This document shows, one piece after another, positions 36,203 through 36,473 of a stretch of DNA of 64,000 nt. Position 1 is the first letter of the stretch; the number at the start of each line of letters is the position of its first letter. Under the pieces are notes generated by a model, which saw nothing but the letters and a program-made list of their open reading frames with translations, searched no databases and was not told the DNA's origin. Source of the stretch: an uncultured Eubacteriales bacterium (GTDB lineage: Bacteria; Bacillota; Clostridia; Peptostreptococcales; Anaerovoracaceae); NCBI GenBank assembly GCA_902773835.1, contig CACYFZ010000009.1:1-64000 (forward strand), in the 5' to 3' direction. A program made the translations under genes and the position numbers.

Positions 36203-36256
36203 GATCATCACCGGAAAAAAGAGAGCAGCGTACAAAAATAAGCCTGAAAAGAGAAA

Positions 36257-36283
36257 AAAACAGGGAGCAATGCTCCCTGTTTT
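36257..36283. terminator. Bidirectional terminator between pepD and the structured intergenic element
   Basis: The stem AAAACAGGGAGC/GCTCCCTGTTTT has a short loop. The minus-strand T run is seven bases and the plus-strand run four, so it can end both the pepD transcript and a DUF937 transcript that carries the folded element. Confidence 0.8.
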
Positions 36284-36306
36284 GTCACTTTTTGAATTTC
36301 AGTATT

Positions 36307-36453
36307 CAACCAGGAGCGAAGCTCCATCAAGCTCGCTTGGTTGGAGCGAGCGACGCCGTCAACAGACGACGGGAGCTTCAGCTCATGAGATCGTCAGTCG
36401 AATATGGAACCCGCCGCCTACTCCGTTGAGGCGGGGGACATCCGGCGTCTGTT
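36307..36453. ncRNA. Folded intergenic RNA candidate
   Basis: An unusually GC-rich, gene-free stretch with many complementary segments: GGAGC/GCTCC (36313-36325); GCTCGCT/AGCGAGC (36331-36351), whose loop TGGTTG (36338-36343) complements CAACCA at 36307-36312; GACGA/TCGTC (36365-36395) around GAGC-ttca-GCTC; CCGCCT/AGGCGG (36414-36434) extended by CCC/GGG; and GACGCCG (36352-36358) closing with CGGCGTC (36443-36449). A competing pairing AACAGACG (36361-36368) with CGTCTGTT (36446-36453) shares the same 3' strand. The strand is undecided; on the minus strand it would be the 3' UTR of DUF937, ending at the terminator at 36257-36283. It could be a known Clostridial ncRNA that I cannot name by eye. 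Confidence 0.5.
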
Positions 36454-36473
36454 ATAACGCTTCGCTACAATTC

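Follow-up and report, generated by a model that had tools for sequence, protein, structure and literature searches.

The locus

The window is a stretch of 64,000 nucleotides (contig CACYFZ010000009.1, forward strand) from an uncultured Eubacteriales bacterium. The locus lies between an M20 peptidase gene and a DUF937 gene (PF06078; 36474-36989, minus strand). On the peptidase side there is a hairpin (AACAGGGAGC...GCTCCCTGTT, 36255-36295, assigned to neither strand) that has T-runs on each strand. Judged by its sequence, it is probably a bidirectional terminator; a permissive Rfam search gave weak sRNA-terminator-like matches only.

Between this hairpin and the DUF937 gene, and excluding the hairpin, positions 36305-36451 are occupied by an internally deleted copy of a mobile, non-coding element, whose functional strand is the minus strand of the window. 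The full-length element is 174 bp (178-bp unit when ATAA is counted), too short for a transposase gene. The window copy retains 147 bp; the missing 27 bp belong to a large hairpin (hairpin 2), a deletion not visible to the earlier reader. That reader had described positions 36307-36453 as a gene-free, RNA-like element. All strands named in that description are present: CAACCA (36307-36312), TGGTTG (36338-36343), GACGCCG (36352-36358), AACAGACG (36361-36368) and CCGGCGTCTGT (36442-36452). The flanks, the DUF937 gene on one side and the hairpin with T-runs on the other, are also as described.

Ends, target and insertion

Read on the minus strand, this copy runs from 36451, its left end (CAGACGCC...), to 36305, its right end (...GGTTGAA). 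A family of repeats shares these boundaries, as seen in the end columns of 74 left ends and 144 right ends. The element starts immediately 3′ of ATAA, and its last bases are TTGAA or TTTAA. ATAA, usually preceded by T, is found in at least 72 of the 74 left flanks (36452-36455 in the window, TTAT on the plus strand); the right flank is unspecific (144 right ends). The two ends (CAGACG... and ...GGTTGAA) are not complementary and no inverted repeats are present. Target duplication is absent: ATAA is not repeated on the right (74 left and 144 right ends).

Two tandem insertions (L098 and L285) contain a copy placed exactly between ATAA and the left end of an older copy. ATAA is single in both and therefore belongs to the target. 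One empty site could be compared, at a fabG-like gene of a related genome (G003), relatives being too diverged at the copies of the window's own genome: the gene ends in ATA-TAA followed by the element, and in three other genomes (G009, G012, G027) the genes stop at the same codon and the element is absent. The TAA of ATAA is the stop codon of the upstream gene in 11 of 55 cases.

Conserved fold

The fold is stronger than that of dinucleotide shuffles on both strands (z = -3.7 plus and -4.6 minus for the window copy; -5.2 plus and -6.0 minus for the undeleted consensus), and the helices originally noted thus go beyond chance. The structure consensus was derived from an alignment of 18 relatives: a long stem, P1, encloses three hairpins, and a highly conserved right-end domain comes next.

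In the window (all on the minus strand), P1 is formed by AACAGACGCCGG (36442-36453), whose AA forms the last two bases of the target ATAA, and CCGTCGTCTGTT (36361-36372), with one mismatch in this copy. It encloses hairpin 1 (CCCCGCC...GGCGGCGGG, with a GC bulge; 36410-36436), what remains of hairpin 2 (36389-36401) and hairpin 3 (GAGCTGAAGCTC, 36373-36384; defined from the 18-sequence alignment). The remnant of hairpin 2, delimited by comparison with full-length copies, is one arm and the deletion junction, at which there is a 3-nt microhomology (TCG). The right-end domain contains the right-end hairpin (GCTCGCTCCAACCAAGCGAGC, 36331-36351), whose loop, CAACCA, is complementary to the terminal TGGTTG, and a near-terminal hairpin (GGAGCTTCGCTCC, 36313-36325) located 8 nt from the end.

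Among the 18 relatives, four of the 11 pairs of P1 (AACAGACG closure) are changed on both sides, and one single-base deletion is matched; hairpin 2 has two covarying pairs. Control values from shuffles and slid partners stay below this level of covariation. In remoter relatives P1 is retained with very different letters, e.g. AACGAGCGCCAG with CTGGCGCTC, and matched variants are many. In the right-end domain, the right-end hairpin helix is paired in 97.6% of cells and the near-terminal one in 98.9%, both nearly invariant. The pairing of loop and terminus is kept in 89.8% of cells, with zero two-sided changes.

The prediction of a conserved, covarying secondary structure is thereby borne out. 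Its two mutually exclusive closures fared differently: the strong covariation of P1 supports the one at 36361, whereas for the one at 36352 (GACGCCG) the 3′ strand is invariant, compensatory changes are absent and the pairing is broken in four sequences. Covariation shows selection on a folded strand and is compatible with RNA and single-stranded DNA alike. Wobble-type changes (pair counts, 18 sequences) gave no decision on which strand is structured. In Rfam, the element has no match at gathering score or at permissive thresholds (HEARO, raiA and other models); a known Rfam RNA family was rejected.

Copies and distribution

When 361 bases spanning the locus were searched against the window's own genome, there were 38 matches. 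About 30-34 nearly identical copies of one unit are present in this 1.9-Mb genome; the exact number is uncertain because contig ends cut some copies. Other copies have private internal deletions and retain both ends. In the own-genome copies L038-L055, the deletions share one junction in hairpin 2, at element + position 93-97 (apex) or 80-84 (foot); the second junction differs between copies, in most cases with little microhomology. Longer variants, with an extra structured module of about 70 nt between the P1 and right-end domains, are found on RUG11951 contigs (L061:3496-3756, L150, L092).

By DNA search the element is found in 14 of 36 genomes of the genus and in none of 24 outside it. Named contigs that carry it come from rumen and gut genomes labelled Mogibacterium, Ruminococcus or Clostridiales. 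With a covariance model, relatives are found in 26 of 394 genomes of the order (11 of 158 genera, several families). These distant members are shorter and share ATAA, the GATGTCCCCCGCCTCTATAGGCGGCGGG hairpin, hairpin 2 and the TTGAA/TTTAA end; since their bit scores are modest, homology at the family level is likely, not proven. Viral contigs, phages and plasmids gave zero matches to the element. Genes next to the copies are unrelated and no gene association recurs.

Orientation

The functional strand is the G-rich strand in 30 of the 33 copies examined in the window's genome (29 of 32 others plus the window copy), GC skew over short loci being partly set by gene direction, a confounder. Between convergent or divergent gene pairs, from which transcription provides no direction, skew is still followed in 26 of 30 cases. 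At the 14 "++" sites, where genes are opposite to the copy, the local skew is mostly opposite, and loci this short cannot split the two causes. In G213, a complete, single-contig relative whose skew changes sign near 0.45 and 1.7 Mb, all seven copies follow the skew, on both replichores.

Relationship to IS605-type elements

TnpB genes are present in the window's genome. The right ends of the TnpB elements carry a hairpin, CCCCACC...GGTGGCGGG, that has the form of hairpin 1. This form has 27 genome-wide pattern matches, 25 in the repeat and two at right ends of TnpB elements (control pattern: 0). A single common signal thus links the repeat with IS605-type elements, and the link does not extend to both ends: the repeat's right-end hairpin is unlike that of the TnpB elements, and blastn and nhmmer comparisons of transposase loci with the repeat found no similarity beyond hairpin 1. 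In IS608, a guide tetranucleotide at the foot of the hairpin matches the target. This rule fits the TnpB elements of the same genome; in the repeat, ATGT/GATGT before hairpin 1 does not match ATAA (comparison by eye).

No match to Y1 transposase (PF01797) is found in the window's genome (96% complete), and IS110 is absent from it. Within the genus, the occurrence of Y1, IS110, reverse transcriptase or TnpB families does not follow that of the element. Two side observations concern such genes. L236 and L262 (G000 contigs C17 and C28) carry a TnpB-only IS605-type element in which no tnpA was found; its right ends are identical over 99 bp, which suggests recent movement. L243:1402-5481 (G000 contig C7) carries two adjacent reverse transcriptases that match PADLOC Drt3a and Drt3b, a probable DRT3-type defence pair.

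Comparison with known systems

The closest systems are the PATEs of Haloquadratum and the PATE-like element of Halanaerobium (PMC3119063, PMC7290912). PATEs are without inverted repeats or duplications and have near-terminal palindromes and a targeting sequence of 4-5 bp; their movement in Haloquadratum was reported though nearly all tnpA genes are disrupted (PMC3119063). The element described here is likewise short and non-coding, lacks inverted repeats and target duplication, has its short targeting sequence at one end only, undergoes frequent core deletions and does not need an intact tnpA in the same genome. The near-terminal hairpins of PATEs are related to IS605-type ends; here hairpin 1 matches such ends and the right-end hairpin does not. 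Unlike PATEs, the element occurs in bacteria, across an order of Clostridia, has a long-range covarying stem and extra hairpins, has two dissimilar near-terminal hairpins, and has an ATAA target that is frequently at stop codons.

IS200/IS605 elements have subterminal hairpins, a flanking target tetranucleotide and a lagging-strand template (PMC6006769). With this group (IS608, ISDra2; IS1341-type, TnpB-only) the element has in common that it inserts 3′ of a short fixed motif, carries subterminal hairpins and hairpin 1, and is biased in strand with respect to replication. Unlike these, the element has neither tnpA nor tnpB, follows no such guide rule and has a different right-end hairpin. REP/REPIN sequences with TnpAREP (PMC8266576, PMC3116915) are also dispersed, intergenic, non-autonomous palindromic repeats with supposed Y1 mobilisation; however, REPs are 21-65 nt long with a GTAG/GTGG foot, a feature not seen in the element, which is also not linked to any REP-type transposase. 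HEARO and IscB omega RNA (Rfam) are similar as structured, RNA-like elements tied to IS605-type mobility, but differ in that the element has no Rfam match.

Interpretation

Since these features are those described for PATEs and IS200/IS605, the proposal is that the repeat is a non-autonomous, PATE-like element and that a transposase of the IS200/IS605 type, acting in trans, moves it in the form of single-stranded DNA (probability about 0.65). The enzyme would probably be a Y1 (HUH) transposase, of the class that should also move the TnpB-only elements sharing hairpin 1. It probably recognises hairpin 1 on the left and the small hairpin close to the right end, and P1 may bring the left end beside the right-end domain. 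The element would be joined 3′ of ATAA without target duplication, through a single-stranded DNA intermediate that would enter the lagging strand. Against this stand the lack of a Y1 transposase in the window's genome and of any tracking by Y1 in the genus, the differing right-end hairpin, the IS608 guide rule, which does not hold here, the dependence of short-locus skew on gene direction, and P1 itself, which is outside the usual two-hairpin description of such elements.

Movement by another mechanism (IS110/bridge-RNA-like, IS91-like rolling circle or reverse transcription of the structured RNA), with the fold acting as RNA, is possible though unlikely. The piece is structured and covarying over about 174 nt, pairing by the 3′ strand of P1 reaches into the AA of the target, IS110 transposases occur in part of the genus, and reverse transcriptases occur in the window's genome. 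However, IS110 is missing from that genome and does not track the element, the sole reverse transcriptases found there are the Drt3a/Drt3b-like pair, and hairpin 1 matches IS605-type ends, not those of IS110. That this unnamed family, spread over an order of Clostridia, chooses ATAA (often at stop codons) through pairing of the target end with P1, possibly as RNA, and not through an IS608-style guide, is quite improbable.

A domesticated intergenic RNA, under selection for mRNA processing, stability or attenuation between operon genes and mobile only formerly, is very unlikely. Structure is conserved, many copies directly follow a stop codon, and most copies lie between genes and are read with them, the neighbours being codirectional with each other at 44 of 88 copies. 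These points are opposed by the near identity of copies within a genome, many with private internal deletions, by unrelated gene contexts, and by an orientation bias that persists between oppositely pointing neighbours.

The single-locus switch or pseudoknotted regulatory RNA of the original prediction is hardly tenable: folding z-scores speak for it, but the sequence is a dispersed repeat inserted at ATAA in unrelated gene contexts and absent from orthologous sites of relatives, the alternative closure does not covary, and the window copy has lost most of hairpin 2. Among the readings of that prediction, the one named as its refutation, a degraded mobile-element end, comes closest: the sequence is that of a mobile element, although the family is intact and this is not merely a degraded end. 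Other candidates were rejected: riboswitch or cis-regulatory RNA (no recurrent gene association, unrelated neighbours), MITE (terminal inverted repeats and target duplication both absent), integron attC (boundaries need no G^TT, no cassette array seen), group II intron or IStron (element too short).

The repeat is thus an uncharacterised PATE-like family that extends across the order and has a conserved fold of unusual complexity. In Clostridia, base-level definition of small non-autonomous elements is rare; here the ends and the target are fixed, the strand is biased and the fold covaries, and single-strand transposition is therefore directly testable. The element explains strongly folded sequence in many intergenic spacers of these gut genomes, as well as assembly breaks at such spacers. 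Fold energy or covariation alone would mislead anyone naming such spacers novel regulatory RNAs.
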